Notes: a model not told the origin generated them from the sequence alone. 28,721 bases of DNA from a virus (IMGVR_UViG_3300025652_000374:1-28721), one strand, 5' to 3'. Positions 4,676 through 23,362 are shown, counted from the first letter of the stretch. A program made the numbers and translations.

Positions 4676-5179
4676 TTAATCTACTACGTTAAATATTGTT
4701 TCAAAATTAGGTATGTAATACGCTTGATTATCTTCTTTAGCAGTTAAAGATATATTGAAACCATTCATATCTGAGCGACTTGTTCCACTTGAAGCACTTA
4801 CAGTAACTTCACCACCATTTCTCATCCCTATAAATCTATACTTCCCATTCCTATCTAATATAACTGCACTATAATCTTTATTAGCTAACTTATATACTTC
4901 AGATAACTCATCTGATTCTGTTATAGTAAAATTTAATTTCTGCGTCCACTCAATACCACCATTTAATACTGCCGTTGATTCTGTAAAAGATATATTTTGT
5001 GCTTCATATAAAAAAGCATCAGTTAATGGGAATGTCACCACCTCTTGGTCTGATACTAAGTTCAAGCTCTTTGAATATTTTTTATAAGCAAATAGATACA
5101 GTTTATCTATACCTCCTTGCCTGTCTTTGCAATTTTTTTTAATTGCTTTGGTAATATTACAGGTTATAAATTCAGCCAT
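4676..5179 (-). CDS. Tube- or decoration-like structural protein, paralogue of the 173-aa protein
   Basis: A 167-residue protein with the same plan as the product of 8363-8884. Both start with an Ile-Thr-Asn-like N-terminus and a Cys-Lys basic patch (ITCNITKAIKKNCKDRQGG here, CDITNGRDRACKEGLGG there), then LYLF/LYLY. Both share a C-terminal block with DRNGKYRFIGM...SRSDMNGF here and DRNGNHHAIGL...AKTDMNGY there. The predicted fold is mostly beta. Such small beta proteins next to connector genes are often tail-tube or head-decoration subunits. It lies 2 bp from the connector gene upstream. Confidence 0.65.
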   Translation of the reverse strand: MAEFITCNITKAIKKNCKDRQGGIDKLYLFAYKKYSKSLNLVSDQEVVTFPLTDAFLYEAQNISFTESTAVLNGGIEWTQKLNFTITESDELSEVYKLANKDYSAVILDRNGKYRFIGMRNGGEVTVSASSGTSRSDMNGFNISLTAKEDNQAYYIPNFETIFNVVD

Positions 5180-7523: not shown

Positions 7524-7928
7524 TTAGTAGTAAAATTTATCTTTAGTCAACAGGTATTCTTGTGAATCTTGTGTTGTGGATATAAAAATACCTCTATATA
7601 TAACCTCTAAAGTGTTTATATAATTAACAACTACATCATATCTGCTTTCACTTCTGAAGTTATAGTCAAATGTCAGAACTAACTTACCATTTTGAACTTC
7701 AAATGTGTTCTCTAATAAAGTAGATTCACTTTTAAAATTATCAGTTATAATTATACTTAAATAATCCTCTTGAATAGAACTTTTTATGCAACCATCATCC
7801 TCAATAATCCCTGAATCAGCAGAAACTCTATCTACAAATGCCTGAACTTCTTCAGTCACAGATTCTACATCGAATCTTGGAACTACAGAAATTGTATGTG
7901 TTGTATCGTTAGGGTTTACTACTATCAT
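7524..7928 (-). CDS. Hypothetical structural protein, 134 aa
   Basis: A mostly beta protein (MIVVNPNDTTHTISVVPRF...) with a C-terminal part ending IYRGIFISTTQDSQEYLLTKDKFYY. It is the first minus-strand gene after the plus-strand island and is followed by the portal gene 3 bp later. The start is fixed by a late-promoter-like motif at 7941-7956, 12 bp before the ATG. I recall similar small proteins beside portal genes in Bacteroidota phages, but no function is known to me. A minor head or neck role is possible. Confidence 0.68.
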   Translation of the reverse strand: MIVVNPNDTTHTISVVPRFDVESVTEEVQAFVDRVSADSGIIEDDGCIKSSIQEDYLSIIITDNFKSESTLLENTFEVQNGKLVLTFDYNFRSESRYDVVVNYINTLEVIYRGIFISTTQDSQEYLLTKDKFYY

Positions 7929-7940
7929 TTATATTGTCTT

Positions 7941-7956
7941 TATACTATTTAACGTT
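7941..7956 (-). promoter_or_regulatory. Late-promoter-like motif, copy 4 (divergent form)
   Basis: The minus strand reads AACGTTAAATAGTATA, aligned with three closer copies that read (C/A)ACGTTAATA(A/G)GTATAT. It lies in the 147-bp spacer between two divergent genes and 12 bp upstream of the ATG at 7928. The motif restarts minus-strand transcription after the plus-strand island, whose bidirectional terminator would stop readthrough. The promoter role is inferred from its repeated placement. Confidence 0.55.
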
Positions 7957-8016
7957 TAGATGTTTGTTTTGTTATTATAAAAAAAAATAATTTAAAATAA
8001 ATTAAAATAAATTAGG

Positions 8017-8044
8017 TTTGTATTAATATGTTTGCTTATCTTTG
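8017..8044 (+). promoter_or_regulatory. Host-type promoter for the plus-strand gene at 8076
   Basis: The pattern is TTTG (8017-8020), a 16-bp spacer and TATCTTTG (8037-8044), followed by CAGAGT. This fits the Bacteroidota consensus TTTG/TAnnTTTG. The flanks AAATTAGGTTT and TTTGCAGAGT are the same as at the minus-strand promoters at 25580 and 28306, so these are copies of one promoter cassette. The ATG lies 32 bp downstream, after the leader TAGAAATT. Confidence 0.8.
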
Positions 8045-8075
8045 CAGAGTAATAAATAATTAAAAAATAGAAATT

Positions 8076-8294
8076 ATGTATTTAACTGAAAACCAAGAGA
8101 ATAAGATTTATACAGAAGTGACTAACTATTTCGAAAAAAATAATGGAGAAGTTACTAACTGCGAAACTAAATTTGTAACAGAAGATTACAACTATTTTTA
8201 TTTTTGTACTGAAGAGTTGTTTCAGGTAAAAGTTACATTCAAAACAAATAACGGAAAGCTATTAAAAAGAAGCTTAAGAACAGAATTAGAATAA
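8076..8294 (+). CDS. Plus-strand moron-like small protein, 72 aa
   Basis: A 72-residue protein starting MYLTENQENKIYTEVTNYF, of mixed helix and beta character, with two Cys residues and many aromatic residues in the middle (EDYNYFYFCTEELFQV) and a basic C-terminus. It has no signal peptide or membrane helix. It is transcribed against the late operon from its own host-type promoter and is closed by a bidirectional terminator, so it can be expressed independently of the late programme. That arrangement is typical of morons and of small anti-host or regulatory genes. I do not recognise the family. Confidence 0.75.
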   Translation: MYLTENQENKIYTEVTNYFEKNNGEVTNCETKFVTEDYNYFYFCTEELFQVKVTFKTNNGKLLKRSLRTELE

Positions 8295-8310
8295 CTAAAA
8301 ACTAAACAAA

Positions 8311-8344
8311 AAAAAGCTCCTCACAATTAAGTCAGGAGCTTTTA
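8311..8344. terminator. Bidirectional intrinsic terminator
   Basis: The arms AGCTCCT (8315-8321) and AGGAGCT (8334-8340) form a 7-bp stem around a 12-nt loop. T runs follow in both directions: TTTTAT on the plus strand, and TTTTTTTT on the minus strand from the A-run at 8307-8315. It lies between two convergent genes and can end both transcripts. Confidence 0.85.
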
Positions 8345-8362
8345 TATTTAAAATAGTATTTA

Positions 8363-8884
8363 CTAAGTTGTAGCTTGTACTATTGCTTCAAATTCTGATA
8401 CTGTTGAGTCATCTAATACAGGAGCTAATTCTGATACTGTAGATACGCCTGTTAATGTGTATCCATTCATATCCGTTTTAGCACCACCCGAAGAAGATAC
8501 TACTGTAAAATCAATTCCATCATCTAATCCTATAGCGTGGTGATTTCCATTTCTGTCTACCACTACTGCTTGAGGATAACCTGCTGCTAATAAATTGAAT
8601 TGAGCGTTTGTAGCTGCATCCATATTCTTTAGCACTACTGTTAATGTTTGAGTGTTAACTCTTGTTCCTGTATTTCTATCAGAAACCATTGATTGCTCTA
8701 AAGTGTTACCATCCCCTTCTAAAGGAAATGCCCACGCCTCAGTAAGCAATACATTCATTGCCGTAGCTTCACCATTTGTCACAGTAAAAGCATCTGCTAA
8801 TTCGTTATAAAGATATAAAGTAGAAGCTCCTCCGAGTCCTTCCTTACACGCTCTATCACGTCCATTTGTTATATCGCACGCCAT
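8363..8884 (-). CDS. Tube- or decoration-like structural protein, 173 aa
   Basis: A beta-rich 173-residue protein starting MACDITNGRDRACKEGLGG. It is encoded just after the major capsid gene. A C-terminal block with VVVDRNGNHHAIGLDDG and GGAKTDMNGYTLTG is shared with the 167-aa product of 4676-5179, so the genome carries two diverged copies of one family. The gene sits between a hairpin (8917-8942) and the bidirectional terminator, so it forms the end of a transcription unit of protease-scaffold, capsid and this protein. A head decoration or major tail-tube subunit fits its size and place. Which one cannot be decided here. Confidence 0.7.
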   Translation of the reverse strand: MACDITNGRDRACKEGLGGASTLYLYNELADAFTVTNGEATAMNVLLTEAWAFPLEGDGNTLEQSMVSDRNTGTRVNTQTLTVVLKNMDAATNAQFNLLAAGYPQAVVVDRNGNHHAIGLDDGIDFTVVSSSGGAKTDMNGYTLTGVSTVSELAPVLDDSTVSEFEAIVQATT

Positions 8885-8916
8885 AATTATTTATATGTTT
8901 TTTTAATTAGTAATAT

Positions 8917-8942
8917 AAGAGGGTAAAATTAATCACCCCCTT
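8917..8942 (-). terminator. Weak hairpin between the capsid gene and the 173-aa gene
   Basis: On the minus strand AAGGGGG (8942-8936) faces CCCTCTT (8923-8917) with one mismatch around an AT-rich loop. No good T run follows, so it may be a partial terminator, a processing site or a 3'-end stabiliser that adjusts expression after the capsid gene. Confidence 0.35.
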
Positions 8943-8958
8943 ATTTATTTGCTTAATA

Positions 8959-9876
8959 TTAAGCTTGTGTGCTTAGTAACCAAACGATTTCATTTCCGTA
9001 AGAATATCCTACTGCACCACCAAATACTGACTTGTACAATACATTTCCACTCAAATCAACCTCATCCATATCCTTAACACGGATAGAATCAGCATCGTTA
9101 GCTAAACCTAAACCTAAAGTAATATTTTCTTTTTCGAAGATTACGATAGTATTGTCAGGTAAACCATTTACAGTTTGGATTGTGTAACGTCCGTAAACCA
9201 TTCCTGTGTTAGCATCACCACCTAAACCATTAGCAGCACCATTTTCAATTAAGAATTTAGTGTAAGCATCAGCAACGTCAGGAGACACGATGAAGTTTAC
9301 ATTCTTTCTTCTTAGAGAGTAAGGCATTGCAGCAGTAGCAGTATCAAATGCATCAGCTACATTAGCTTTAGTAATAGCTGCACCGATTGCAGTAATACCA
9401 CTATTAGCTTTGATTACATCACTATCAGCAGCGAATTGAGTAATTAACCCACTCATTTGTCCTGCAGAACCTGCACCATTCCAAATTTGGTTTTCAAACC
9501 ATACTGCTAACTTACTTGAAGTTGAAGCAACGATTGCCTGAGAAATCTCAGCAGGTGTTTGGTCGTTAAAAGCTGAAGCTCCCATAGACTCACCTGACCA
9601 AGTTGGACGGAAATCTTCTTTACATATTTCAAATTCATTCTTGAACTTGTCTAATGTAAGAACTTTTTCTTCATAGTTTACTGCGTCTGTCGCAGGTGAA
9701 GTACCACAAGAATAATCAACTACTCCTAATGTTACATCTAAATTTCTAAGGTTCAATTTGTACCCTACGTTTGGAACTACTGTAATAAGATTTAATCTTA
9801 AAGTGTCCTCCTCTTTTTGAGCTTGAAGCATAATGTTTGTTGCTTCGAAACCTGCATAATTACTTGTTATTGCCAT
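8959..9876 (-). CDS. Major capsid protein, HK97-like, 305 aa
   Basis: The main shell subunit of the head. Size and gene position directly after the prohead protease-scaffold fit HK97-fold capsid proteins of Bacteroidota phages. Visible features include an N-terminal helix (GFEATNIMLQAQKEEDTLRLN), a spine-helix-like stretch (DQTPAEISQAIVASTSSKLAVWFENQIWNG region), a beta-rich P-domain with NVNFIVSPDVADAYTKFL, and a C-terminal segment GVVG-like (VFGGAVGYSYGNEIVWL). Only one Cys pair region (DYSCGTS) is present. The leader AAATAAATAATAGTAAAATG supports the start. The N-terminus may be trimmed by the upstream protease, which I cannot confirm. Confidence 0.83.
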   Translation of the reverse strand: MAITSNYAGFEATNIMLQAQKEEDTLRLNLITVVPNVGYKLNLRNLDVTLGVVDYSCGTSPATDAVNYEEKVLTLDKFKNEFEICKEDFRPTWSGESMGASAFNDQTPAEISQAIVASTSSKLAVWFENQIWNGAGSAGQMSGLITQFAADSDVIKANSGITAIGAAITKANVADAFDTATAAMPYSLRRKNVNFIVSPDVADAYTKFLIENGAANGLGGDANTGMVYGRYTIQTVNGLPDNTIVIFEKENITLGLGLANDADSIRVKDMDEVDLSGNVLYKSVFGGAVGYSYGNEIVWLLSTQA

Positions 9877-9900
9877 TTTACTATTATTTATTTAATTAAA

Positions 9901-11082
9901 TTAACTTTGTTTTTGTTCGTAACCTCTCATTACGTTTAAAATTCTTTCTTGTTTTGTCATTGCCACCTGAGTAGGAACAGATTTGATTACTTTAGAAGCA
10001 GGTGTTTTAGATAACACTACTAATTCAGCTTTCAATTCATTATTCTTTTCAGTCACCACCGACATCTTAGTATCAAAATCAGCTTTAATAGCATTCATTT
10101 GTACTTCCATTTTCTCAGCATAAGCTTGAAACATTTCTTCTAAGATAGATTTGATTGTGTCAAGTTCATTACTTGGACTATCAGTCTCTTCAGTTACTGC
10201 TTCTTCAGCCTTAACTTCTTCCTCTTCTTTAACGTCTTCTTCTTTTGCTTCTACAGTCTCCTCTTCCTTAGCTTCAGCTTCCCCCATAGACTCAACAGAA
10301 CCATCTTTTACTTCGATAGTACCTGCTTCATCAAGTTGGTAGCTTCCATCAGGTAAAGCAACTTTTTCTTCCCCGTTCATTACGAACACAGGAGAACCTA
10401 CTTCTAAAGAATCACCTTCAAACTGAATGTCTAAATCCCCTGATTTTGCACTCCCTAATGCAACCTCAACAGTCTCTTCAACTTTCTCAGCTCCTGAAAT
10501 GATTTCTTTAAGCATCGTAATAATACTCTTGTTTTCACTCATTTTAACTTCTGATTTTAAATTAATTTCTTCTAAATCTACCATAGCATCAACTGAGAAT
10601 CCTTCAACTTCACCTGTCTTAATATAATTATTCCAAATGTCATCATTGTCAACTTTCATTGTTGCTATCCAACTCCCCTTAGGAAAATTCATTCCGAAGT
10701 TCGCACTCTTATCTATTTCAGAATTCTCAACTATCCAACTTTCAACAAACGTCACATCTTTTATAGGACTGTTATGTTCCAACTTTGAATTTAATTGAAA
10801 ACCTGATTTAAAGAAGTTGTGTGATAACTCCTTAATCGTATCGGCAGAAAAAACTATATTGAACTGTTCTCCTGTAGTAGGGTCTTCTCTTAGAATTAAT
10901 TGTTTTGGCTGAAGAACTAAACCCATTACAATCCTTTGTTCCTCATTTACCTTAGCCATCTTAATCATCTCTTCTTGAGCTGACATCGCAATAAATGTCT
11001 CTTCAGTTGCAGGTGTCTTTACTAAACTTATAGCAAAAACTCCTTTTCCTCCCTTTTTAAATTTAGCATTAAATGTTTTCAT
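9901..11082 (-). CDS. Prohead protease (XkdF-like) fused to scaffold, 393 aa
   Basis: The N-terminal ~175 residues resemble the XkdF-type phage serine protease. They contain VMGLVLQPKQLILRED, SHNFFKSGFQLNSKLEHNS with a candidate catalytic His at 103, KGSWIATMKVDNDDIW, and the hallmark TGEVEGFSVDAMV with a candidate Ser at 163. The C-terminal half is very acidic (Glu/Val-rich repeats about 255-300). It ends in a helix with coiled-coil pattern (about 305-365) and a basic tail, as expected for an internal scaffold. Protease-scaffold fusions act during prohead assembly, then cut themselves and other head proteins. The start ATG at 11082 overlaps the late motif, so the transcript may be nearly leaderless. 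Confidence 0.77.
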   Translation of the reverse strand: MKTFNAKFKKGGKGVFAISLVKTPATEETFIAMSAQEEMIKMAKVNEEQRIVMGLVLQPKQLILREDPTTGEQFNIVFSADTIKELSHNFFKSGFQLNSKLEHNSPIKDVTFVESWIVENSEIDKSANFGMNFPKGSWIATMKVDNDDIWNNYIKTGEVEGFSVDAMVDLEEINLKSEVKMSENKSIITMLKEIISGAEKVEETVEVALGSAKSGDLDIQFEGDSLEVGSPVFVMNGEEKVALPDGSYQLDEAGTIEVKDGSVESMGEAEAKEEETVEAKEEDVKEEEEVKAEEAVTEETDSPSNELDTIKSILEEMFQAYAEKMEVQMNAIKADFDTKMSVVTEKNNELKAELVVLSKTPASKVIKSVPTQVAMTKQERILNVMRGYEQKQS

Positions 11083-11096
11083 ATACCTATTAACGT
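11081..11096 (-). promoter_or_regulatory. Late-promoter-like motif, copy 3
   Basis: The minus strand reads ACGTTAATAGGTATAT, one base different from the copies before terS and the chaperone gene. Its last bases include the start codon at 11082, exactly as at 18921-18936. It begins the protease-scaffold, capsid and tube-like unit after a 191-bp gap with an inverted repeat. Confidence 0.62.
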
Positions 11097-11154
11097 TTTG
11101 ATTTAATTATTGTTATAACCCCTCTTAAATTGTGTTAAAATTATGTTAACAAAA

Positions 11155-11200
11155 GGTATCATTTTTGGTAATTTTTGAGATTTTTACCGAATTTGATACC
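11155..11200. repeat. Nested inverted repeat in the tape measure-protease gap
   Basis: Outer arms GGTATC (11155-11160) and GATACC (11195-11200) enclose inner arms GGTAA (11167-11171) and TTACC (11184-11188), with 6-bp T/A-rich spacers on both sides. T runs lie just outside on the plus strand (ATTTTTTT) and shorter ones on the minus strand (CCTTTTG). It could end the tape measure transcript or be a protein-binding site for the next unit. The rest of the 11083-11273 gap contains no convincing gene. Confidence 0.5.
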
Positions 11201-11273
11201 ATTTTTTTGAGGGTTTACGGGGTGCCATTGGGGGTAGCTCTTAGTTATATATTATTAGTAATAGCTTCTTATT

Positions 11274-13145
11274 TTATATCCCACTATTTGATTCAATTTG
11301 TCTGTCTAAAGATTGTTGTGAAGTTACATCTTGTGCTACTACAAATGCTCTCAATGGAGTTTCATTAACATTCTGAATACTGTTCTGTATTTGATTACCC
11401 TCTGAACCTTCAACCAAGTTAAATGACGGTGCAGGAGCACTACCTCCACCTCCTTGTGAGTCATCACCTCTATCTACTGAGCCTCCTTTACCTAAAGCCT
11501 GTAACCCTTTGGTAGTTGCTAATGCAGTTGACGCTAAACCTATACCTAAATTAACTTTATTTAGTATCAGTTTACTTGTTAAGTATCCCGGACCTGCCAC
11601 AGGACCTAAGGTAGCAGCGTGAGCAGTATCAGCTAAATCAGCAGTATTCTTACCTATTATCATCTTAGCAACACCTACACCTGCCTCTGCTATAAGTGCA
11701 GTAGCTTGAAGTGCTTTTGAATCCTCACCTAATTTTTTAAGTAAACCAATTCCTCCAACAATAGTATTTAGAGTAGCGTCCTGTATATCTTTCTTTGCGT
11801 CTGCTACTTTCTTTGCAGTATCTATCTCTTTTTTAGCATCATCTTCATCTCTCTTTGATTTTTCTTCACTTCTTTTGTTAGCTAACTCATCTTCCTTTTG
11901 GTCGTAGAATTCATTAAGTAACAGAAGTGCTTCTCTCTTTTCCTCATCAGTACCAACTAATCTCTCTAATTCCTCTTCTGCTCTTGTTCTTTCAAGTTCT
12001 AATTTTTCCTCTTCACTTGTAGCATCTAAGTCCTCATTCTTTTTCTTCAATGCGTTTTTGTAATCAGATAATGCTTTTAACCTAACTTTCTCAGCTTCAT
12101 CGATTACTTTCTGCTCTTCAGCTTTTTCCTTTAGTCTCTGCTCCTCTTCTCTTGCAATCTCATTCTCAGCAGTAGACAATTCTCTTTGTATGGTCCTTTT
12201 CTGATTTAACCTCCTTGTTTCAACTGCTATAGATTCAGCTTTTAATCTCTCTTCTGTCTCTAAATTTTCTTTAGTAGAACGTGCAAAGCTATTCTCAAGT
12301 GTCTGTGCATCCCTCCTTAAATTAGCCACCTCTTGCTCACTACCAATTAAAGAGTCTTGTAGTACCATTACTTTTTTTAATGCTTCTTCCCTTTCTTTTG
12401 CAGTAGTGTTATTTACATCTTTTGCTTTAACTCTTAATTCTGCAATCTCTCTCTCAGCTTTAGCTCTCCTAACTAATAAACCTCTCTCAACCTTGTCAGC
12501 CTTAGCTCTCATGTCAGCTACGTCAGCTGCCTGTTTTGCCTCTTTTTCATTCTGTTTTATAAAGTCACCAACTGCATCAGTAGCGTTCTTAACCTTACCT
12601 GTAACATCCTCTACACCTAAAGCAACTTTACCCATAGCATTACCTGCTACCTTACCTGCTTCAGCAAATTCACCTTCAAACAGTAGTCCAATAGCAGTAC
12701 CAAGAGCAGGAATCAATTCCATTAACCCCTCAAATCTATTAACTACATTATCCTTTATTAGTTTACCAAATGACTTTAAAGATTGTTGTGGATTCTCAAA
12801 TACATTAATTAATAAATCACCTAAGTCAGCCAACACATCAACAAGGTTACCTGTAACTGCACCAATAACCCCCATTATTTTAGCGAACTTATTCTGACCT
12901 TCCTCTGAGCCTTTGAAGGCTGCACTAATAGCCGATATAGTTATTACTAATAAACCTAATCCTGACAAAGCAATAGCTCCCCCAACAGTTCTAAAACCTG
13001 CTGCAATAGACTTTAATCCTGCTGTAAATGATTTAAACATAGTACCTGCACCACCCGATAACTTATCTACTGAACCTGTAACATTATCTACTCCTTCTTG
13101 TGCTTGAGTAGAGTCCACAGTCATTTTTACTTTTACTTCTTTCAT
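11274..13145 (-). CDS. Tail tape measure protein, 623 aa
   Basis: A tape measure sets the length of a long tail. The N-terminus (KVKMTVDSTQAQEGVDNV) and two hydrophobic segments (about 52-80, GGAIALSGLGLLVITISAIS, and about 88-115) are typical. A long charged coiled-coil region runs from about 195 to 475 with Lys/Glu-rich heptads, followed by Gly/Ala-rich hydrophobic helices (about 478-560). The C-terminus is Ser/Gln/Asn-rich. From 1.5 Angstrom per residue the tail would be roughly 90 nm, a general rule rather than a measurement. The ATG overlaps the stop of the 54-aa gene by one base. Confidence 0.88.
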   Translation of the reverse strand: MKEVKVKMTVDSTQAQEGVDNVTGSVDKLSGGAGTMFKSFTAGLKSIAAGFRTVGGAIALSGLGLLVITISAISAAFKGSEEGQNKFAKIMGVIGAVTGNLVDVLADLGDLLINVFENPQQSLKSFGKLIKDNVVNRFEGLMELIPALGTAIGLLFEGEFAEAGKVAGNAMGKVALGVEDVTGKVKNATDAVGDFIKQNEKEAKQAADVADMRAKADKVERGLLVRRAKAEREIAELRVKAKDVNNTTAKEREEALKKVMVLQDSLIGSEQEVANLRRDAQTLENSFARSTKENLETEERLKAESIAVETRRLNQKRTIQRELSTAENEIAREEEQRLKEKAEEQKVIDEAEKVRLKALSDYKNALKKKNEDLDATSEEEKLELERTRAEEELERLVGTDEEKREALLLLNEFYDQKEDELANKRSEEKSKRDEDDAKKEIDTAKKVADAKKDIQDATLNTIVGGIGLLKKLGEDSKALQATALIAEAGVGVAKMIIGKNTADLADTAHAATLGPVAGPGYLTSKLILNKVNLGIGLASTALATTKGLQALGKGGSVDRGDDSQGGGGSAPAPSFNLVEGSEGNQIQNSIQNVNETPLRAFVVAQDVTSQQSLDRQIESNSGI

Positions 13146-13309
13146 TATTTTTTAGATTTTAGTATTCGTTTGATTTTTGTTTTTGCGTCATTCCAATTAG
13201 AAATCATTTGGTACTTCCCTTTAGCTATCTCTATATTATCACCACCACCATAAAAGTCATTGGTCCTTAGTATATCAATAGCATATTTTATGTCATTATT
13301 TTCCTTCAT
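13145..13309 (-). CDS. Small protein upstream of tape measure, 54 aa
   Basis: The gene starts MKENNDIKYAIDILRTND and ends with a strongly basic tail (KTKIKRILKSKK). It has a short Gly-rich turn (DFYGGGDNIE) in the middle. Its TAA overlaps the tape measure ATG (TAATG), which implies translational coupling. It starts 4 bp after the stop of the 917-aa gene, so it is a tightly packed member of the tail cluster. Function unknown; a small tail assembly factor is possible from position. Confidence 0.65.
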   Translation of the reverse strand: MKENNDIKYAIDILRTNDFYGGGDNIEIAKGKYQMISNWNDAKTKIKRILKSKK

Positions 13310-13313
13310 ATTA

Positions 13314-16067
13314 TTATCCTTGATTTACTTGTGTTATACACATTCCACCTTGTTCTTTAAATATTCTTTTACATCCCGTTATAGATAGATTAGATACTTT
13401 ACCTATGAATATACCATTTAGATGATTAGGTTCATTTATTTGCACTAACCCTATATCATCAGCATCGAATCCTGCTACGTGAGTTCCCGTGTAAGTACCA
13501 TTCCCCGAATTCTTAATATGAACGCCATTAGAAGAACCAAACCAAATCCCTACTTCTCCCGATACCCAATCAGATATAGTGTATTCAACTTCATAAGTAC
13601 ATCCTCCGACTACTGAATCAAAGCTTGACGTTTGGTCTAATCGCCTCCCTGCAATACCTGTACTCTCAGCAAACCCACCACCTACAATCCAACCATCTGT
13701 GTAGCCGTTAGGTATGTACCATTCTGAAGCATCTGCAAAGTCACCATTTCTAACTATATCCCCCTGAACTATTGTTGATTCAGTATCTGTAAAGACTAAG
13801 TTAGTAGTCCTTGAGAACGTTCCTACAGGAATAGATGTCCAAGCATCAACAATTACTTTAAGTTGATTATCAACGTCTACAGACTCTGTAACGAAAGATG
13901 CACCACCTCCAACTACTGATGATGTAATAGTATAGTCTTGTATGTTAGGTATGTTAAATCCATAAGTACCTCCTGAAACACTTGCATTAAAGCATTCTGT
14001 AGGTAATATAACGTCGTTAGTCTCGTATTTATCAAACCCATTAATTAGTTCTAATTGAGTTCTACCGGTTAATAGATTATATTTGAAATTATTAATTCTA
14101 TAATCTAATTGGTTTATTGTGATTATATCGTTTAATTGTAATCGTGTTATAATCTGAATAGGTAACTGAGCAGATATTTTAAAAGTTCTACGTTTAACGT
14201 TAAAAATAGCCTCTAAATAGTTCTGATAATGATTAGAATATAACGTATTGTTCATAATCTCATTTGAATATGTACTAACTTCTGATTCAAATCCTAATGA
14301 ATAAGCCGGTGAATATATTCCAAAGTGACTCATTGGCATAAACATATTAGTGTTTAACTGTTGAGGTGTTGATGTTCCCCATTTAATAGGATTATCTACA
14401 ATAGAAACCAAAGATGCGTAGTGAATATGTGGTTCAGTAAACACCGGTTCATAAGCGATATCTATAGCACTACCTATCTGAATAGTTGTATCAGTATCAG
14501 TATCAGCATCTGTTAATCTTTCATAAACAATAGTTTCAAAAGGTAATTTCACAGTTAATACATCACCATCATAAGCAACTCCATTTTCATTTGTAAGCTT
14601 TACCTTACTGTCTCCATAGCCTACACCATTGTCATCTTTAAACTTTTTAGCTAAAATTGTAGTAGGGTCCTCATAAGTAAAATCTAACTCCGATATTATT
14701 TCTCCTCTATCTACACCTATAGAAGCAAAATCTACATACTTAGTAATTTCGTGACGATTACCCGTTCTATAAAAAGCATCTAATGAATTTACATAGAAGT
14801 CCTTATCACCTTTACCAATTACTACAAGCTTAAACATTTGTATAATACCTCTAAGAAATTCAGTTACTTCTAATTCCGGCATCAATCTCTTCATAACAAC
14901 TCCGGCAGTAGTAACTACATTACCTGATGTAGACGATGTTTCCGGGATACCAAATCCAACTCCGTTAAGAATATAAGTTGATTTTAAAGAAGCAGAATAT
15001 TCGAAAGCCTCAGTACTTACTACATAAAATTCAATAATAATATCGTCGTGTGTAATTGGATTAAATCCGGGATATCTTAATGGTGTTAATATTTGAGTTC
15101 CCGACACACTTGTTAATTGTGCGATTCTACCCTCACCATTATCTATCCTTTTAATATAAGTGGTATAGTTAACGTTTTCAAAACCTACTGAAGGTGTGAT
15201 TTTTAACTCAATTCTAATGCCATCATTGCCGGTACTTGAGGGGTCATAAGTGTAAGTAGCAACATCTGTAGTTGTATTCATCCAAGAGCCATCTGTAGTA
15301 TTCCAATCGATTAATTCATCATTGTTTCCTATTGCTTTTCCTTCTAAATCAGCAGATAACCATATATAAAGCTCATCGAACTCTGTAGTACCAAAGAAAT
15401 CACGTGAGAATGTAATACCATATTTAACCTCTATAGCTTTAATTATCTCTATGACCTTCATCGATGGTCTAAGTTCTCTGTACTCTATACCTGAACCTCC
15501 ACCATTCCAAGCGATATTCCTTCTCCTTAAAATTCCGTTAACCACCTCATCTGTAGTAGCTGAATCAGAATCATAAAACATCCCCTTCTGTGCTATAGGA
15601 GTGTATATAATAGAGCCATTACTTAATCCTTGTGTTAATCCTTCTTTTATTTTATCAGGCGTGTAGACGTGGTCTAAATGGGTGAAATCTAAATCCTTTA
15701 GTATATCCTTTCCTACTGTCTCAGATAGTGAAGCAGTATCACCATAAAAGTTTATTTTGTATGAATCCGGTACACCTTTCTTTAAATTCACACTTCTAAG
15801 CAACCACTTACCTGTCTTAAAAGGAACTCCATCAATATCAATAGAACCTTCTACTCTTGTACGAGCATCAAATCCATTATCAATACTTGAATTGTACCAA
15901 TGTTTAAACACTTTGTTATTGCGTTTAGATGAAGGAACTGAGAATTCCTTTGAATAATCACCTGTGTTCTTTGTGATATCCTGTACATCTAATACTGAAC
16001 TAACAATATCAACACTCTCATCAGTATATTGGTCTATCAACTGACCTTTTACGTATAGATTAACCAT
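13314..16067 (-). CDS. Large tail or baseplate protein with C-terminal carbohydrate-binding-like module, 917 aa
   Basis: The N-terminus is LYVKGQLIDQYTDESVDIVSSVLDVQDITKNTGDYSKEFSVP, followed by PFKTGKWLLRSVNLKKG, a pattern I recall from large tail proteins of Bacteroidota phages. The body to about 700 is mixed beta. The last ~170 residues hold a module beginning VRNGDFADASEWY, with WIVGGGFAES, YEVEYTISDWVSGEVGIW and a closing VSNLSITG. It is of the same type as the modules in the two fibre proteins. The module is followed by a short Cys-containing tail (MCITQVNQG). A baseplate or central tail role with added host-binding ability is likely. Confidence 0.7.
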   Translation of the reverse strand: MVNLYVKGQLIDQYTDESVDIVSSVLDVQDITKNTGDYSKEFSVPSSKRNNKVFKHWYNSSIDNGFDARTRVEGSIDIDGVPFKTGKWLLRSVNLKKGVPDSYKINFYGDTASLSETVGKDILKDLDFTHLDHVYTPDKIKEGLTQGLSNGSIIYTPIAQKGMFYDSDSATTDEVVNGILRRRNIAWNGGGSGIEYRELRPSMKVIEIIKAIEVKYGITFSRDFFGTTEFDELYIWLSADLEGKAIGNNDELIDWNTTDGSWMNTTTDVATYTYDPSSTGNDGIRIELKITPSVGFENVNYTTYIKRIDNGEGRIAQLTSVSGTQILTPLRYPGFNPITHDDIIIEFYVVSTEAFEYSASLKSTYILNGVGFGIPETSSTSGNVVTTAGVVMKRLMPELEVTEFLRGIIQMFKLVVIGKGDKDFYVNSLDAFYRTGNRHEITKYVDFASIGVDRGEIISELDFTYEDPTTILAKKFKDDNGVGYGDSKVKLTNENGVAYDGDVLTVKLPFETIVYERLTDADTDTDTTIQIGSAIDIAYEPVFTEPHIHYASLVSIVDNPIKWGTSTPQQLNTNMFMPMSHFGIYSPAYSLGFESEVSTYSNEIMNNTLYSNHYQNYLEAIFNVKRRTFKISAQLPIQIITRLQLNDIITINQLDYRINNFKYNLLTGRTQLELINGFDKYETNDVILPTECFNASVSGGTYGFNIPNIQDYTITSSVVGGGASFVTESVDVDNQLKVIVDAWTSIPVGTFSRTTNLVFTDTESTIVQGDIVRNGDFADASEWYIPNGYTDGWIVGGGFAESTGIAGRRLDQTSSFDSVVGGCTYEVEYTISDWVSGEVGIWFGSSNGVHIKNSGNGTYTGTHVAGFDADDIGLVQINEPNHLNGIFIGKVSNLSITGCKRIFKEQGGMCITQVNQG

Positions 16068-16068
16068 C

Positions 16069-17160
16069 TTAAATATTGTTTATTTCATTATAACTCATTT
16101 CAAACTTGATAGTATAAGATATTAACCTATCATTCTGCCTTGTTTTATACTTGAATGTTTTGTCAACTACGTTTAAAGGAGTAGGAACTGCATCAACATA
16201 CATCCAAACTCTCTCACTAAGCAGCATTTGTTTAACTACTTCAGTATTATCTTCATCAATAAATCCTGTTTCTACTGTTAATGATGTTCTACCTTGCACA
16301 TTATGTCTTACAAACTGATGGAATCCTACAGAAGCTTGACCTCTATTTGTTTCAAAGTGATTATCTGTGATAGTCATAGCCTCCTCTTGCTTCTTAAAGA
16401 ATGTGAATATCTGATTAGCTCCATCCTTATTCTGAAATATAACATCTAAAGGTGTGTACTTGCATTCGTTTACTATATCTAAAACTGTTGTAGAAGATAC
16501 TGATGTGTTAGTATTAGTATTAACTATATTAACAAAAGCATCTGTTGTAGTATCGTTTAAATCAACCCACAAGTACTGTACTGAGTCATCTGAATTTAAT
16601 GTTGGAGGTATTGTAAATGATTCGTTTAATTGCTGATTAGGTTCTGATATAGCAGTAACAGTTAATGTATCTAATGAAGATGCTGCGAAAGGATATATAA
16701 AGAATCCTTTTCTGCTTACCTTATAATCTTGTGTCTTTAACAACACACCATCTTGAACAGTATCAAAGTTTTTACCCTCATCCCCATAAGAATATCCCAA
16801 TGTCATAATGTCTCCCTTCTCATCAAACTCAGTAGCAACATCATCATATTTAACTGTTGTTCTAACCCACATCTGATTCTTACCATCTATGACTTGAGTA
16901 GTCTCAGCAGGATTAGGGAATGGCTGCTTAAACTCTATGTAATCTTGGATAATTGCATTGATGTTTATATCGTGAGTTGTAGGGTCTGCTTGTGTGTTAA
17001 TAAATGTAATATCATAAGTGTTTACACCTGCATCATTATAACCCGTTACTATTCCATTCCATACTTGAATAGTTAATGTATATTTCTGACATATAATCGA
17101 AGTAGGATTAAGATATGTTAAATTTGTTGTTACGTAATATGGACTTAATGCTCTTATCAT
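16069..17160 (-). CDS. Tail protein, 363 aa
   Basis: A beta-rich 363-residue protein starting MIRALSPYYVTTNLTYLNP. The N-terminal ~130 residues look like a folded beta domain. The C-terminal part contains repeated beta strands and a DNHFETNRGQASVGFHQFVRH block. It is separated by one base from the 917-aa gene and by one base from the HK97 gp10-like gene, inside the tail cluster upstream of the tape measure. From its place it is a tail or baseplate structural protein. I do not know an experimentally studied homologue. Confidence 0.65.
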   Translation of the reverse strand: MIRALSPYYVTTNLTYLNPTSIICQKYTLTIQVWNGIVTGYNDAGVNTYDITFINTQADPTTHDININAIIQDYIEFKQPFPNPAETTQVIDGKNQMWVRTTVKYDDVATEFDEKGDIMTLGYSYGDEGKNFDTVQDGVLLKTQDYKVSRKGFFIYPFAASSLDTLTVTAISEPNQQLNESFTIPPTLNSDDSVQYLWVDLNDTTTDAFVNIVNTNTNTSVSSTTVLDIVNECKYTPLDVIFQNKDGANQIFTFFKKQEEAMTITDNHFETNRGQASVGFHQFVRHNVQGRTSLTVETGFIDEDNTEVVKQMLLSERVWMYVDAVPTPLNVVDKTFKYKTRQNDRLISYTIKFEMSYNEINNI

Positions 17161-17161
17161 T

Positions 17162-17704
17162 TTATTTTATTATTATATTATCATTTACTAAACTCTCCTC
17201 TAATTTATTCTCTATTTCGAGGACCAATGCATCACCTAAATCATTCGATACTTTGTCTATCTGATTATAAAAAGCATCTGTAAAAAAGTTAGTTGTTTTT
17301 ATTCCTGTGTGATATACAGAATTAGCTATTGCAAACATAGTACTCTTCCTACTTATAAACTGACCTTTCTTATTTCTCCCTTGTATTCCTTTCTTATACA
17401 TAAAGTTATTAAATACATTAGCAGGAGGTTTCTTATCTCTGTACTTAAATTTATTATTAGTTACCTTCTTTACTTTCCATTTCTCACCATTAGCTTTCTC
17501 ACCACCTACACCTTTCACACCTGCATCAACATACTCCCAATAGTCATTAATCTTAAACGTCAATGATGTAACCCCCTTCTTAGTCTTTACACTATATTTA
17601 AGAGACTTACCTAAATCAGAATCCTTTATCTTGTTCTTTTTAAGATTCTTTTTAGATTCACTTACAACCTTCCTCCCAAACTTTCTAAGCTCTTTATCTA
17701 ACAT
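17162..17704 (-). CDS. HK97 gp10-like tail completion protein, 180 aa
   Basis: A basic 180-residue protein beginning MLDKELRKFGRKVVSESKKNL, with a central WEYVDAGVKGVGG turn and a conserved K-rich segment (KGIQGRNKKGQFISRKS). Helix-strand-turn structure with a YxDAGxKG-like motif is typical of HK97 gp10-like neck or tail completion proteins. It overlaps the preceding gene by 7 bp. Such proteins sit at the head-tail joining region or form the tail terminator interface. The match is by pattern, not by alignment. Confidence 0.66.
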   Translation of the reverse strand: MLDKELRKFGRKVVSESKKNLKKNKIKDSDLGKSLKYSVKTKKGVTSLTFKINDYWEYVDAGVKGVGGEKANGEKWKVKKVTNNKFKYRDKKPPANVFNNFMYKKGIQGRNKKGQFISRKSTMFAIANSVYHTGIKTTNFFTDAFYNQIDKVSNDLGDALVLEIENKLEESLVNDNIIIK

Positions 17705-18156
17705 AAGCTAACCTCATACATTGGCATCTCTACATCAAATGACATTGTCCATCCGTCAGAAAGATTAATCCCTTCAAAATCTATTTGGTCTATAGTAGGG
17801 TTATCAGATGCAGTTATATTATTACGTGCAAAGTCTCTACTCATCTTAGTCCAAACCATAGCTAATGAAGCTAATGTAGCATTATGATTGTCTACACTAT
17901 TGTCATTATCCCAAAACTTATCATTTATGTTCTCTTTGTTAATCATTCTAATATCAACACAAGTTAGTTCCACATTAAATAGAACTGTTGCAGTAGACGT
18001 TATAGAGCCTCCTAATGCACTTATATTAAATATTGGGAATATATTACCTTTCTCCCAATCGAAGTCATCAGGAACTCTGTTAAGGACTGTGGTGATGTAT
18101 TCATCTTCCTCTACTAATCCTTTAATGTATCTTAATAATTGACTATATGCATTCAT
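17698..18156 (-). CDS. Tail terminator- or completion-like protein, 152 aa
   Basis: A 152-residue protein starting MNAYSQLLRYIKGLVEEDEY. It has an N-terminal helix, then beta strands (FPIFNISALGGSI, VLFNVELTCVDIR), a helix, and a C-terminal strand (WTMSFDVEMPMYEVSLC). This order resembles tail completion or terminator proteins of siphoviruses. It lies between the frameshifted chaperone and the gp10-like gene. The ATG lies 2 bp after the stop of the frameshift product. The last codons overlap the next gene. Confidence 0.58.
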   Translation of the reverse strand: MNAYSQLLRYIKGLVEEDEYITTVLNRVPDDFDWEKGNIFPIFNISALGGSITSTATVLFNVELTCVDIRMINKENINDKFWDNDNSVDNHNATLASLAMVWTKMSRDFARNNITASDNPTIDQIDFEGINLSDGWTMSFDVEMPMYEVSLC

Positions 18157-18158
18157 AT

Positions 18159-18922
18159 TTATAATGTTGTTACGTTACTTCCTTTTCTAATGTTTGCCTC
18201 CATCTTCTGCTTATCTAATCTGTGTGCGAGTCCTATATGAAATGTATGTACAGGTAACTCAGTAACTTCATTAATCTTCAGTATATCACCACCTGCCATC
18301 ATGTCTAATGTTGGGTACCATCCCCACTTTGAGAAATAACCTGTTGCACTCTTCTCGCTTCCTCCACTACTTCCTCCGTAGATTTCATTATATATGTCTT
18401 TAATTCCCTCGATAAATGGCAAAAAAAAACCAACATCCCATTAACGATATTCATAGGTGCTTGTTTCATAACCTCATTATACTTGTTGTCAGCCTTGTAC
18501 TTCTCTATCTTGTAGTGTCCGTGTCTATCTTCCTTTACTATTGGTCTAAACAGAATACCCATTATCTTATGTAGGTTCTCTGCTGACACTCCTGTTGAGG
18601 TTAAATCTATATACTCACCTGCACTCATCTCATCTAAGTTAGGTATGAATCCAAACTCTACCCCATTAAGTGTAAATCTCTGTGTGAACTCAACCTCTGT
18701 ATTTAATGCTAATGTAATCTGTGATACGATATTCTCATAGTCTGTAATAGTCATAGCATCCACCTCTTTAGTCTTTAGTCCTGTGAATAGTTTTACTACT
18801 CTTTTGGTCTTATCTAATTCGCTGAGGTTATCCCTATCAGCTATAGACAAATACCTTTGACTCTGTTCTAATGTGATGTCTGAGTTATTCTCAGGTAATG
18901 ATATTGTAATACTTTCCTTCAT
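18159..18922 (-). CDS. Tail assembly chaperone, long -1 frameshift product, 254 aa
   Basis: The 205-aa reading frame that starts at 18922 reaches a run of nine T (18429-18421) in the codons GTT TTT TTT TGC. A -1 slip there joins residue 167 to a second open frame (LPFIEGIKDIYNEIY, then KSATGYFSKWGWYPTLDMM), giving a 254-residue protein that stops at 18159. The extension has the features of chaperone T-type tails: an aromatic WGWY block, AGGDILKINEVTELPVH and a basic end. Without slipping the product is the 205-residue form ending at 18305. Siphophages make such G and GT pairs to load the tape measure. The start ATG overlaps the late motif. Confidence 0.7.
18305..18922 (-). CDS. Tail assembly chaperone, short form without frameshift, 205 aa
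   Basis: This is the unshifted product. It starts MKESITISLPENNSDITLEQ and has a conserved-looking core (GVEFGFIPNLDEMSAGEYIDL, LHKIMGILFRP, NEVMKQAPMNIVNG). After the T-run it continues CHLSRELKTYIMKS and ends in an acidic tail. The size and the position in a tail cluster fit the G-type chaperone. The distance from the tape measure (five genes away) is larger than usual. Confidence 0.68.
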   Translation of the reverse strand: MKESITISLPENNSDITLEQSQRYLSIADRDNLSELDKTKRVVKLFTGLKTKEVDAMTITDYENIVSQITLALNTEVEFTQRFTLNGVEFGFIPNLDEMSAGEYIDLTSTGVSAENLHKIMGILFRPIVKEDRHGHYKIEKYKADNKYNEVMKQAPMNIVNGMLVFFCHLSRELKTYIMKSTEEVVEEARRVQQVISQSGDGTQH

Positions 18923-18936
18923 ATACTTATTAACGT
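18921..18936 (-). promoter_or_regulatory. Late-promoter-like motif, copy 2
   Basis: The minus strand reads ACGTTAATAAGTATAT, identical over 16 bp to the copy before terS, with AGGG(A)TAAA-like bases upstream in both. The last bases form the ATG at 18922. If it is a promoter with the start point near the ATG, the mRNA is leaderless. It restarts the minus strand after the plus-strand island. Confidence 0.62.
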
Positions 18937-18977
18937 GGGTTTTATCCCTTTGTTATTTACTTATCTAATGTTAACAA

Positions 18978-19007
18978 ATGTTAAAGTTTTATGTAGTTCA
19001 TCGAATA
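18978..19007 (+). repeat. 30-bp upstream element, copy at 19 kb
   Basis: The element starts ATGTTAAAGTTTTATGTAGT and ends TTCATCGAATA. A copy with one mismatch lies on the minus strand at 25654-25625. Both copies sit 13-17 bp upstream of the -33 part of a host-type promoter. The shared ATGTTAAAGTT also appears at 28370-28360 before a third promoter. Confidence 0.72.
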
Positions 19008-19020
19008 TATTAAAATAAAC

Positions 19021-19051
19021 TTGTGAGGTATCTACATCGGGTGTATATTTG
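19021..19051 (+). promoter_or_regulatory. Host-type promoter for the plus-strand gene at 19088
   Basis: TTG at 19021-19023, a 20-bp spacer, and TATATTTG at 19044-19051 match the Bacteroidota consensus. The ATG lies 36 bp downstream, after TTAGAAATT. The TTG codon inside the -7 box could be read as an earlier start, but it would lie upstream of the transcript, so ATG 19088 is chosen. Confidence 0.8.
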
Positions 19052-19087
19052 TACTGTTGCAACGAAGCAACCACAAAATTAGAAATT

Positions 19088-19315
19088 ATGTACAACGATA
19101 ACAACATTAAAAAATTAGTATCTTTAATTGAAAAGTATGGGAAAAGAACTAAAGAGAATTTAGTATGGAGAGGTTCAAAATTAAACATTAGTGAAAGTGA
19201 AGTAATAAACTCTATTGAATTACTGTTAGATTTAAAAGTAATAAATGAAGCAGAAGAGATGATAGGAGACGGATGGAACAGTAGACAAACTGCTAAGTAT
19301 TATCAATTAGCATAA
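19088..19315 (+). CDS. Plus-strand moron-like protein, possible winged-helix regulator, 75 aa
   Basis: A 75-residue protein beginning MYNDNNIKKLVSLIEKYG. It has helices separated by short turns and a segment LNISESEVINSIELLLDLKVI that looks like a helix-turn-helix, followed by a possible wing (GDGWNSRQTAKYYQ). It may bind DNA and regulate phage or host genes. It is encoded against the late operon between terL and the chaperone gene, with its own host-type promoter, a 30-bp upstream element and an intrinsic terminator. The start at 19088 is preferred because an earlier TTG lies in the promoter. The family is not recognised with certainty. Confidence 0.72.
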   Translation: MYNDNNIKKLVSLIEKYGKRTKENLVWRGSKLNISESEVINSIELLLDLKVINEAEEMIGDGWNSRQTAKYYQLA

Positions 19316-19321
19316 ACAAAT

Positions 19322-19346
19322 AGGGAGCGTAACAACTCCCTTTTTT
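19322..19346 (+). terminator. Intrinsic terminator of the plus-strand gene
   Basis: AGGGAG (19322-19327) and CTCCCT (19336-19341) form a 6-bp stem with an 8-nt loop, followed by TTTTTT (19341-19346). It lies just past the plus-strand gene and 2 bp from the terL stop. On the minus strand the T run is poorer (TATTTGTTT), so it may also slow readthrough from terL, less strongly. Confidence 0.82.
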
Positions 19347-19347
19347 A

Positions 19348-20571
19348 TTACCTTATACTTATCTTACCATTCCCCATTAACTGATGTGATACTGAATACC
19401 TCAACGCATCGCAAAGGTGATTGTAAGCATCTATAATTGTACCTGACTTCTTATGACTGTACGCATAGTTATTAAGCTCTTTAGCGAGGTTTAAACTATC
19501 AGGACATACTACAAGGTCATAATCTTGAATAAGTGCAATACCTGCGTTAATAGAACCTGCTCCTTTCTTAGCTCCTATTATATTACATTTCTGTCTACGC
19601 ATCTCGTCAATCATGCGAGGCTCAGCTGAATCAGCCACAACTAATGACTTCCCACAAGTATTTAAAGTTATCTTAGCAGTATCTGTTGTGCTTATCCCTG
19701 TGTGATACATATGTTCCTGTGCATATATAATCCTCTTCTTTTTATCTATAGCAACACCAATTAATGTAGTGGGGTCATTTGTAAAACCAAAGTCCATTCC
19801 ATAAGTTACCTGTAAGTTGTTAGGGTTAAATACACCTGTACTCCAATCTTTAAATACAACACCTTCTGCTGAATCCATCCATCCACCCATTATCTCGTGC
19901 TGATACTTAATAGGTCTATCTCTCTTCATTCTATCCATATTAGCTATGAATGATTTAGATACGTTCTCCTCATTGTCTTTGTACGTAGTGTGTATGTACG
20001 TCACATCACCCTTAGTCAAATTAGCTCCACCATTTACACCTGTCTCCTCAAAGAATCTCTTATATATCCAATGTTCTTTTGTAGCCGGATTCATCACTAA
20101 TATAACTCTGTTCTGTATTCCTTTCTGTCGTACACTTAAATCAATCTTATCAAACACATCTTCATCAACTAACTCTTCTGCCTCCTCTATAATCCAACAA
20201 GTAATCCCCTGCAATGATTTTAGATTTGCTGATTGGTCTCCTGATGAGGTTTTGATTCCTCTAAACAATATCTTGCTCCCTGTCTCTATATTTACTATCT
20301 CATTCTTAGTAACTACAAATAGCTCTTCTAATCCCATTATCTCAATCTTCTCTAAGAACTCAGGTATGATTGATATTAACGTAGACACCATTGTATATCT
20401 CGTGAATAATATTGTATGTCCTACCTCACAAGTAAGCATAGTAAGGATAGCAGTAATACTAAATGACTTAGAACTACCCCTTCCCCCTGTGACTACAAAA
20501 TATCTGCTCGGCTCTGAGACTATAGGTGAATACTTTGGTGATATTAATATGTTAGGTTTATTCCTCTCCAT
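19348..20571 (-). CDS. terL: Terminase large subunit, 407 aa
   Basis: The packaging motor and nuclease. Residues 29-36 hold the ATPase Walker A (GGRGSSKS). WIIEEAEE (126-133) is the Walker B. LVMNPA (about 158-163) is near the coupling motif. The C-terminal nuclease part has acidic residues in YGMDFGFTNDPTT (Asp 260), VVADSAEP (Asp 314) and DAYNHLCDALRYS (Asp 381 and 388), the order of the RNase H-like nuclease in PBSX-type terminases. Length is normal. The start overlaps the small subunit gene by 14 bp. It would cut and package concatemeric DNA with the small subunit and the portal. Confidence 0.95.
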   Translation of the reverse strand: MERNKPNILISPKYSPIVSEPSRYFVVTGGRGSSKSFSITAILTMLTCEVGHTILFTRYTMVSTLISIIPEFLEKIEIMGLEELFVVTKNEIVNIETGSKILFRGIKTSSGDQSANLKSLQGITCWIIEEAEELVDEDVFDKIDLSVRQKGIQNRVILVMNPATKEHWIYKRFFEETGVNGGANLTKGDVTYIHTTYKDNEENVSKSFIANMDRMKRDRPIKYQHEIMGGWMDSAEGVVFKDWSTGVFNPNNLQVTYGMDFGFTNDPTTLIGVAIDKKKRIIYAQEHMYHTGISTTDTAKITLNTCGKSLVVADSAEPRMIDEMRRQKCNIIGAKKGAGSINAGIALIQDYDLVVCPDSLNLAKELNNYAYSHKKSGTIIDAYNHLCDALRYSVSHQLMGNGKISIR

Positions 20572-20893
20572 CTACTTCTATTGTGTAATCTTCACTCACT
20601 CCAAATCCTATAAGACTTTTGAAATCAATCCCTGCTGCCATTGTAGCTTTTATCTCTACTTGTGCTGTAGGTTTAACTGTACTGTACTCTAATAATAGTT
20701 TAGCTGCTTGTATGTTCCCATCTATAGCTTCATTAAATAATGTACGAAATACTTTACCTAACTCTTCTCTTGACATTGAATCTTGCATTACATCTTTAAA
20801 TTGATTCTTACGTCTGTCATTAGGGTTCAAGCTCTTTGTGCTATGTCCACCATTTCCTATCCTACCATCAACTTTCTTTATACCTTTATCCAT
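20558..20893 (-). CDS. terS: Terminase small subunit, 111 aa
   Basis: A 111-residue protein with a basic N-terminus (MDKGIKKVDGRIGNGGHSTK), a helical middle (SREELGKVFRTLFNEAIDGNIQAAKLLLEY) and a C-terminal acidic end. The GNIQAAKLLLEY part is common in small proteins paired with terL. Small subunits recognise DNA and regulate packaging. The gene overlaps terL by 14 bp and is the first gene after the late-promoter-like motif at 20921-20936, 27 bp away. A clear helix-turn-helix is not visible, so the assignment leans on position. Confidence 0.75.
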   Translation of the reverse strand: MDKGIKKVDGRIGNGGHSTKSLNPNDRRKNQFKDVMQDSMSREELGKVFRTLFNEAIDGNIQAAKLLLEYSTVKPTAQVEIKATMAAGIDFKSLIGFGVSEDYTIEVDGEE

Positions 20894-20920
20894 TTTAATA
20901 GAAATTATATATTAATCTTT

Positions 20921-20936
20921 ATATACTTATTAACGT
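20921..20936 (-). promoter_or_regulatory. Late-promoter-like motif, copy 1, before terS
   Basis: The minus strand reads ACGTTAATAAGTATAT, then AAAG, with 27 bp to the terS ATG. It lies just downstream of the early-region terminator at 20962-20992, exactly where late transcription should begin. Four such sites occur in the window. Confidence 0.65.
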
Positions 20937-20961
20937 GCGATTTACCCTAATGTTATATAAC

Positions 20962-21955: not shown

Positions 21956-22558
21956 TTATTTCTTTTTAGCTTTACGAATCTTCATATTCGAGTTATTATA
22001 TAATTGCTCCTTACTATCCCCTAATACAGAATCAAGAGCTTTGTGCAATTCTCTATATACAAAGCCATAATTGATATTATATACTTTGGCTATATTTCTT
22101 ATTGACCTGTCGTAAGATTCCTCAATAATCTCTCTCTGATGATAAGGTAGTTTTGCTATCCTATCTAAGATTTCCTTCTGCTCATCTGTTGGCTCAAAAG
22201 GAATTGACTTATCTTCTGCATCCATTCCATAAAGTAAATTAAGCATCGATTGCTTACTGACGTATTTCTTCTCAGCGTTCTCCTCAGCTTCTTCAAAAGT
22301 ACCTGCTCCGTATATTGCGTACTCTTCAAGTGGCATATTTATAGTATGACCATCAACCTTTTCTTTTCTAATCATATCAATAAAGATAGATTTTAGTGTT
22401 AACGTCACGTAGTAGTCATTAACATCCTTATCTTTATCCATTAATTTAAGATACATATCTTGTACCAAGTCATCGGCCGACATCTTATTCCCTGTAATTT
22501 TGGCTGCTATAGTTCTCCACTTTGCATCATGCTCTACTAATTCATTTATACCTCTCAT
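21956..22558 (-). CDS. Sigma-70-like (ECF-type) factor, 200 aa
   Basis: A putative RNA polymerase sigma factor of phage origin. Residues about 27-66 (SADDLVQDMYLKLMDKDKD to FIDMIRKEK) match region 2, including the D-L-V-Q-D core-binding motif. Residues about 132-178 (RIAKLPYHQREIIEESYD, then IRNIAKVYNINYGFVYRELH) look like region 4 with a helix-turn-helix for the -35 element. There is no region 1.1 or 3, as in ECF sigmas, though the region 2 core is short. It lies one base from the phosphoesterase gene and precedes the late genes, so it is the best candidate to recognise the four ACGTTAATA motifs. Confidence 0.72.
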   Translation of the reverse strand: MRGINELVEHDAKWRTIAAKITGNKMSADDLVQDMYLKLMDKDKDVNDYYVTLTLKSIFIDMIRKEKVDGHTINMPLEEYAIYGAGTFEEAEENAEKKYVSKQSMLNLLYGMDAEDKSIPFEPTDEQKEILDRIAKLPYHQREIIEESYDRSIRNIAKVYNINYGFVYRELHKALDSVLGDSKEQLYNNSNMKIRKAKKK

Positions 22559-23299: not shown

Positions 23300-23310
23300 T
23301 TGTTTTTCTT

Positions 23311-23348
23311 CCTTTAAAATAAAAGGGATGAAGCGTTAACCCCATCCC
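23311..23348 (-). terminator. Intrinsic terminator after the SSB-like gene
   Basis: On the minus strand GGGATG (23348-23343) and CATCCC (23330-23325) form a stem around a 12-nt loop, followed by TTTTATTTT. It lies 12-50 bp upstream of the phosphoesterase ATG, so some transcription must pass it or start elsewhere. Confidence 0.7.
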
Positions 23349-23362
23349 CATCTTATTGGTTA

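Follow-up and report, generated by a model that had tools for sequence, protein, structure and literature searches.

What switches on the late genes of the Bacteroidota phage represented by the virus record IMGVR_UViG_3300025652_000374, a genome fragment of 28,721 bases (the whole of which we call the window)? The original prediction was that four copies of a 16-bp motif on the minus strand form a phage-specific late promoter. This proposal is supported by our analysis: the motif is kept in related phages, and the candidate for its reader is an extracytoplasmic function (ECF)-like sigma factor encoded by the phage itself. We conclude that the four elements are very probably late promoters of a Bacteroidota phage that would be read by the host RNA polymerase core together with this sigma factor.

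The four copies lie at the minus-strand positions claimed for them and have the letters that were quoted. ACGTTAATANGTATA is found on this strand without mismatch at 20936-20922, 18936-18922, and 11096-11082 and with 2 mismatches at 7955-7941, and these are the only sites in the window when up to 2 mismatches are allowed. The remaining ACGTTAA strings, which had been called incidental, all lack the rest of the element (minus strand, 26187, 22405, 20382, 15175, 14200, 10235, and 5586; plus strand, 4686 and 14197). At 3 mismatches, the 15-mer ACGTTAATANGTATA is no more frequent than expected by chance (12 sites, versus 7.5 expected), and therefore the case for the elements needed other evidence. 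Alignment of the sites confirms the 16-bp part and reveals that the original description of the motif was incomplete, as it missed an ATAACA that precedes all four at a constant distance, giving a bipartite element, ATAAC-N16-CGTT (AAC-N16-CGTT). In putative late promoter 1 (20922-20956, minus strand, as are the others), which precedes terS and terL, the −35 sequence ATAACA is at 20956-20951 and the −10 sequence CGTTAA is at 20935-20930, with a spacer of 16 and with the ATG (20893) 42 nucleotides (nt) past the start of the −10. Late promoter 2 (18920-18956) has its −35 at 18956-18951, its −10 at 18935-18930, and the ATG at 18922-18920; late promoter 3 (11080-11116) has the corresponding features at 11116-11111, 11095-11090, and 11082-11080. 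As had been noted, the ATG is part of the motif in these two copies. Late promoter 4 (7941-7975) has its −35 at 7975-7970 and its −10 at 7954-7949, and the ATG (7928) is 26 nt past the start of the −10.

The bipartite form is far from a chance arrangement. The window has 4 occurrences of TAACA-N15-CGTTAA, versus 0.03 expected from order-2 shuffles. The shorter TAAC-N16-CGTT is also seen 4 times, versus 0.76 expected, and since some shuffles gave 4 as well, the significance rests on the longer form. In an unbiased search that was supplied with no motif and that scored spaced pairs of 3- to 5-mers with gaps of 8 to 24 in all upstream regions by a Poisson statistic, ATAAC-16-CGTT was the top spaced pair in the window, with a −log10 p of 9.4 (null maximum, 7.1; reached in 0 of 60 Markov shuffles). 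When a matrix was built from the relatives only, the four window sites ranked 1, 2, 3, and 5 of 57,364 positions. The spacing and sequence are those of ECF-type sigma promoters, which have AAC in the −35, a spacer of 15 to 17 (the range applied in PMC10880074), and a short −10. Two other approaches were abandoned: an earlier motif finder with heavy G/C weighting, which in most genomes was led astray by chance matches rich in GC, was replaced by the exact spaced pairs, and counts of AAC plus a tetramer at fixed distances to the ATG, made without a de novo step, were uninformative.

The relatives are 80 phage loci from a search with TerL; when phage records were searched at the DNA level with the late region, nothing was found. 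The preset test of the original prediction was whether the motif occurs at orthologous sites in related phages, and it is present at three such places, namely, before terS, past terL, and before the protease gene. L005, L006, and L007 (83% TerL identity) have TAACA...CGTTTA upstream of terS and directly after terL, the two orthologous sites that they cover, and relatives of 55 to 59% TerL identity keep sites at all three places. Phages down to ~55% TerL identity, including the cultured P12024L and P12024S, have both a sigma orthologue and AAC-N16/17-xGTT before late genes. In Nonlabens phage P12024L, there are six AAAACA...CGTTAA sites, and an annotated start codon follows each at 11 to 12 nt (gp05, gp08, gp37, gp42, gp45, and gp46). 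The AAC of these sites is at record positions 2999, 5380, 22059, 24740, 25979, and 27580. In the blind search of the relatives, an AAC-16-xGTT pair ranked first or near it (TAACA-CGTT, 4 times, in L022 and L073; GAAAC-TGTT, 4 times, in L018, L019, and L020; a TGTT pair in L049; and a GGTT pair in L056). Matrix matches scoring >12 number 98 on the forward strand, 27 of them seed sites, versus 8 on the reverse strand. What is constant among relatives is AAC, a spacer of 16 or 17 nt (16 in the window), and xGTT, often with an ATG 12 to 13 nt on; the GTATAT 3′ part of the originally described motif does not belong to this conserved core. RAP44 and Harreka_1, which are more distant by TerL, have neither the sigma gene nor the paired motif in the stretches examined.

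The −10 differs from genome to genome in a regular way. When AAC-N16 followed by each of seven possible −10 tetramers was counted per genome, every genome with a clear signal (the window and nine relatives) had a single dominant version: CGTT in the window, L022, L023, and L073; TGTT in L018, L019, L020, and L049; GGTT in L056; and AGTT in L008. On the TerL tree the version switches ~10 times, an approximate figure, since the labels were assigned by hand and, in many loci, from single sites. A phage-encoded reader acting in trans predicts just this pattern, in which several sites of one genome share a version and a related genome has another.

A candidate for this reader is the product of the gene at 21956-22558 (minus strand), ~1.1 kb upstream of terS, a 200-residue ECF-like sigma factor that has regions 2 and 4 only. 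It matches NCBIfam TIGR02937 (sigma70-ECF) at 52.4 bits, versus a cutoff of 42.9, as do 38 of 38 aligned relatives, and residues 15 to 67 match Pfam Sigma70_r2 at 25.9 bits (cutoff, 24). A profile search of solved structures returned SigW (1e-7), SigL, SigE, and SigH, and the best Foldseek matches of an AF2 model are ECF sigma factors, with helices consistent with the two-region architecture; the Foldseek TM-scores are low because the two domains are loosely placed. The resemblance to Bacillus subtilis SigW (structures 5wuq and 5wur) extends from regions 2 and 4 to the promoter: the SigW consensus, TGAAAC-N16-CGTA, likewise pairs a −35 containing AAC with a CGT-type −10 at a distance of ~16 nt. 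The window sigma differs in being phage encoded, in its late-gene context, and in its low sequence identity. The stretch between its regions 2 and 4 is ~35 residues longer than in its closest relatives, and the added residues are predicted at low confidence. At rank 9, the structure search with the model also lists 9n9q_C, a chain of an RNA-guided transcription complex (E value, 1.2e-3), which probably reflects the shared sigma fold only. Sigma orthologues were found by iterated search in 47 of the fetched loci. Protein profiles were needed for this, since tblastn with the sigma as the query returned no record and missed even P12024L, which has an orthologue. The orthologues of P12024L and P12024S (Nonlabens/Persicivirga; genus Inhavirus), gp35 and gp33, are annotated merely as Sigma-70 region 2-containing, and the PHROGs family of the sigma, phrog_31712, has no function given.

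We infer that this phage sigma factor reads the four promoters. The alternative in which a host ECF sigma factor reads them has some appeal, as Bacteroidota encode many ECF sigmas and a −35 AAC is common among ECF promoters. However, exactly one sigma copy is present in 10 of 10 records checked, in the same place in each relative; within a genome, the sites change their −10 version together; and both the sigma and the motif are missing from RAP44 and Harreka_1 in the stretches examined. Based on these associations, we consider a host reader improbable.

Host-type promoters are found elsewhere in the window. A TTGTG...TATATTTG promoter at 19021-19051 (plus strand) precedes the first plus-strand island (open reading frame [ORF] 19088-19315) and is divergent from late promoter 2, and a −7 element, TATCTTTG, at 8037-8044 (plus strand) is upstream of the second island (ORF 8076-8294) and divergent from late promoter 4. 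On the minus strand, TATCTTTG at 23732-23739 is upstream of the block that leads to the sigma gene and is a candidate early promoter, and another host-type element lies upstream of a minus-strand block at 28306. In contrast, none of the four late genes has a TAHHTTTG in its 75 upstream nucleotides, in agreement with the original observation that the motif does not match the host TAnnTTTG type. Host-type elements before the islands and other minus-strand blocks, with none before the late genes, fit a sequence of events in which host sigma would act first and phage sigma second. A terminator-like hairpin, GGGATG...CATCCC followed by TTTTATTTT (23310-23350, minus strand), separates the 23363-23662 gene from the phosphoesterase-sigma pair. 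Since it lies between the 23732 element and the sigma gene, a second promoter may serve the latter. The small opposite-strand genes at 19088-19315 and 8076-8294 lie next to late promoters 2 and 4 in divergent orientation, and these promoters would restart transcription past the first and second islands, respectively. The islands were rejected as the sole reason for restarts, as L005, L006, and L007 have the site directly after terL with no island between. In P12024L (L085), some other-strand host-type TATATTTG elements overlap the late −35 and spacer (CAAATATA), an overlap that could prevent early and late use at the same time.

The lack of TAHHTTTG upstream of the late genes also argues against a different reading of the elements, namely, that they are operators at which a phage repressor or activator acts on nearby host-type promoters. 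Short motifs repeated before several operons are typical of operators, and a TGTTAACAT sequence is found further upstream of promoters 2 and 3. Yet the element is not palindromic, and in many cases it stands at a constant 12 to 13 nt from the ATG, which suits a −10 element and not an operator; we regard operators as slightly less probable still than a host sigma reader. There is very little to recommend promoters of a T7-like single-subunit phage RNA polymerase, which would share with these elements a superficially similar compact, conserved ~16 bp around the start site: two parts 16 to 17 nt apart are a sigma pattern, and PF00940 has no match in the window, which is fragmentary, or in nine relatives (two of them complete genomes), although it matched no control genome either. 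That the motif is a translation start signal or a chance resemblance without promoter function, as the ATG within two copies and the AT-rich DNA might suggest, can be set aside almost entirely, since counts are far above those in shuffles with strict spacing of the two parts, the sites are conserved at orthologous places, and two copies sit 26 and 42 nt before the ATG.

In the mechanism that we propose for the phage sigma factor, host sigma-A promoters (TAnnTTTG) would drive the early genes, the sigma gene among them. The phage sigma would then bind the host RNA polymerase core, and the resulting holoenzyme would start four late units. The first comprises terS and terL. Its first gene, at 20558-20893 (minus strand, as are all the late genes), is a probable terS based on its place just before terL (it belongs to phrog_38011, function unknown), and terL is at 19348-20571 (phrog_2, 2.5e-45). 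The second unit comprises tail-region genes and begins with the gene at 18305-18922 (phrog_32199, function unknown), whose start codon is within the promoter 2 motif. The third comprises protease and head genes and begins downstream of promoter 3 with a Peptidase_S78_2-type phage (head) protease gene at 9901-11082. The fourth comprises portal and tail genes and begins with a gene of unknown product at 7524-7928, followed by the portal gene at 5763-7520.

From promoters 2 and 3, transcription would begin at the ATG or within a few bases of it. The first base of the −10 tetramer is 12 or 13 nt ahead of the ATG at 2 of the 4 window sites and at 3 of 4 sites in each of L018, L019, L020, L022, and L073. 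The distance from the end of an ECF −10 to the start site is 3 to 6 nt in the range used in PMC10880074, which together with the 12- to 13-nt spacing would place the transcript start at most a few nucleotides before the ATG. The mRNAs from such elements are thus probably leaderless, and the original suggestion of leaderless transcripts gains indirect support from the conserved spacing. In Flavobacterium johnsoniae, 87% of mapped transcripts have leaders of >10 nt (PMC6847099), and leaderless late mRNAs would therefore depart from the host rule. In the CGTT genomes, the terS site is a leadered exception, with 39 to 43 nt to the ATG. A TAATTTCTATTAAAATG-like leader stretch that may be a translation signal is found just before terS in the window (~20893-20915, minus strand) and in L005, L006, L029, and L068.

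Several observations weigh against our reading of the four elements as late promoters served by the phage sigma. Rank 4 of the relatives-only matrix is a site within a gene, at 18465, presumably a chance match. Sigma region 4 (Sigma70_r4_2, residues 128 to 175) scores 22.9, below its cutoff of 25.7, and the AF2 model has a low pTM of 0.39, with fold matches that rest on separate domains. The spacer is 17 instead of 16 in L005, in L006, and at most P12024L sites. The test by absence rests on two phages only, RAP44 and Harreka_1, and because the relatives share ancestry with the window, the conservation is partly inherited. Finally, several records (L062, L066, L078, and others) have no clear xGTT pair. 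Some clades (e.g., L031, L062, and L078) show, by eye, only a weaker AAACTA-N14-CTATTATATA pattern, and records without a clear pair may use this instead, an assignment that is less secure.

Other features of the window are less directly related to its promoters. A run of nine T's (GGTTTTTTTTTGCC; 18429-18437, minus strand) lies within ORF 18305-18922 at the point where another reading frame (ORF 18159-18422 region) becomes open, and is also present in L005. It resembles a site of programmed slippage or frameshifting and may belong to a tail assembly chaperone pair. There are also two apparent paralogue pairs, 454-1950 and 1952-4237, which both match phrog_5939 (tail), and 4676-5179 and 8363-8884, which both match phrog_19091.

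The proposed mechanism is of the kind described for the phages phiEco32 and 7-11, with which the window shares a sigma factor in the phage genome and a common promoter element before late structural genes. In Salmonella phage 7-11, the sigma factor SaPh711_gp47 reads late promoters of the form GTAAtg-(16)-aCTA with the host core (PMC8948821). The likeness is one of architecture: the phage encodes a sigma with region 4, its late promoters are bipartite with 16 bp between the parts, and the host core is used, as proposed for the window. The −35 and −10 sequences and the host phylum are different. The gp36 protein of phiEco32 reads tAATGTAtA and directs middle and late transcription with the host core (PMC8948821; PMC4331800). 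Here too a phage-encoded sigma serves later transcription through the host enzyme; in contrast to the window, the phiEco32 promoter is a single element with no −35, and gp36 has no recognizable region 4. The host phylum, the promoter sequence, and the probable leaderless starts distinguish the system proposed here from both. Within the Bacteroidota, the closest cultured comparison is P12024L, which differs in having AAAACA rather than ATAACA as its −35, a spacer of mostly 17, and all six ATGs at the short distance from the −10. Our literature search, partial in its coverage, yielded precedents for phage sigma factors in other hosts and none for Bacteroidota phages.

Bacteroidota phages are abundant in the sea and the gut, and the control of their late genes is little described. 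The comparison across relatives raises the tentative idea, which we rate somewhat below an even chance, that a group of these phages has its own ECF-like sigma factor, a separate late program, and largely leaderless mRNAs, with sigma-promoter specificity that co-changes by clade. Our results provide a likely function for the unannotated phage protein family phrog_31712, a specific, testable combination of sigma gene and promoter in two cultured phages, and candidate sigma-promoter pairs for use in Bacteroidota. If the idea of co-changing specificity is true, the versions CGTT, TGTT, GGTT, and AGTT, and perhaps CATT, AATT, and CTAT, would be natural matched sigma-promoter pairs that may not cross-react.

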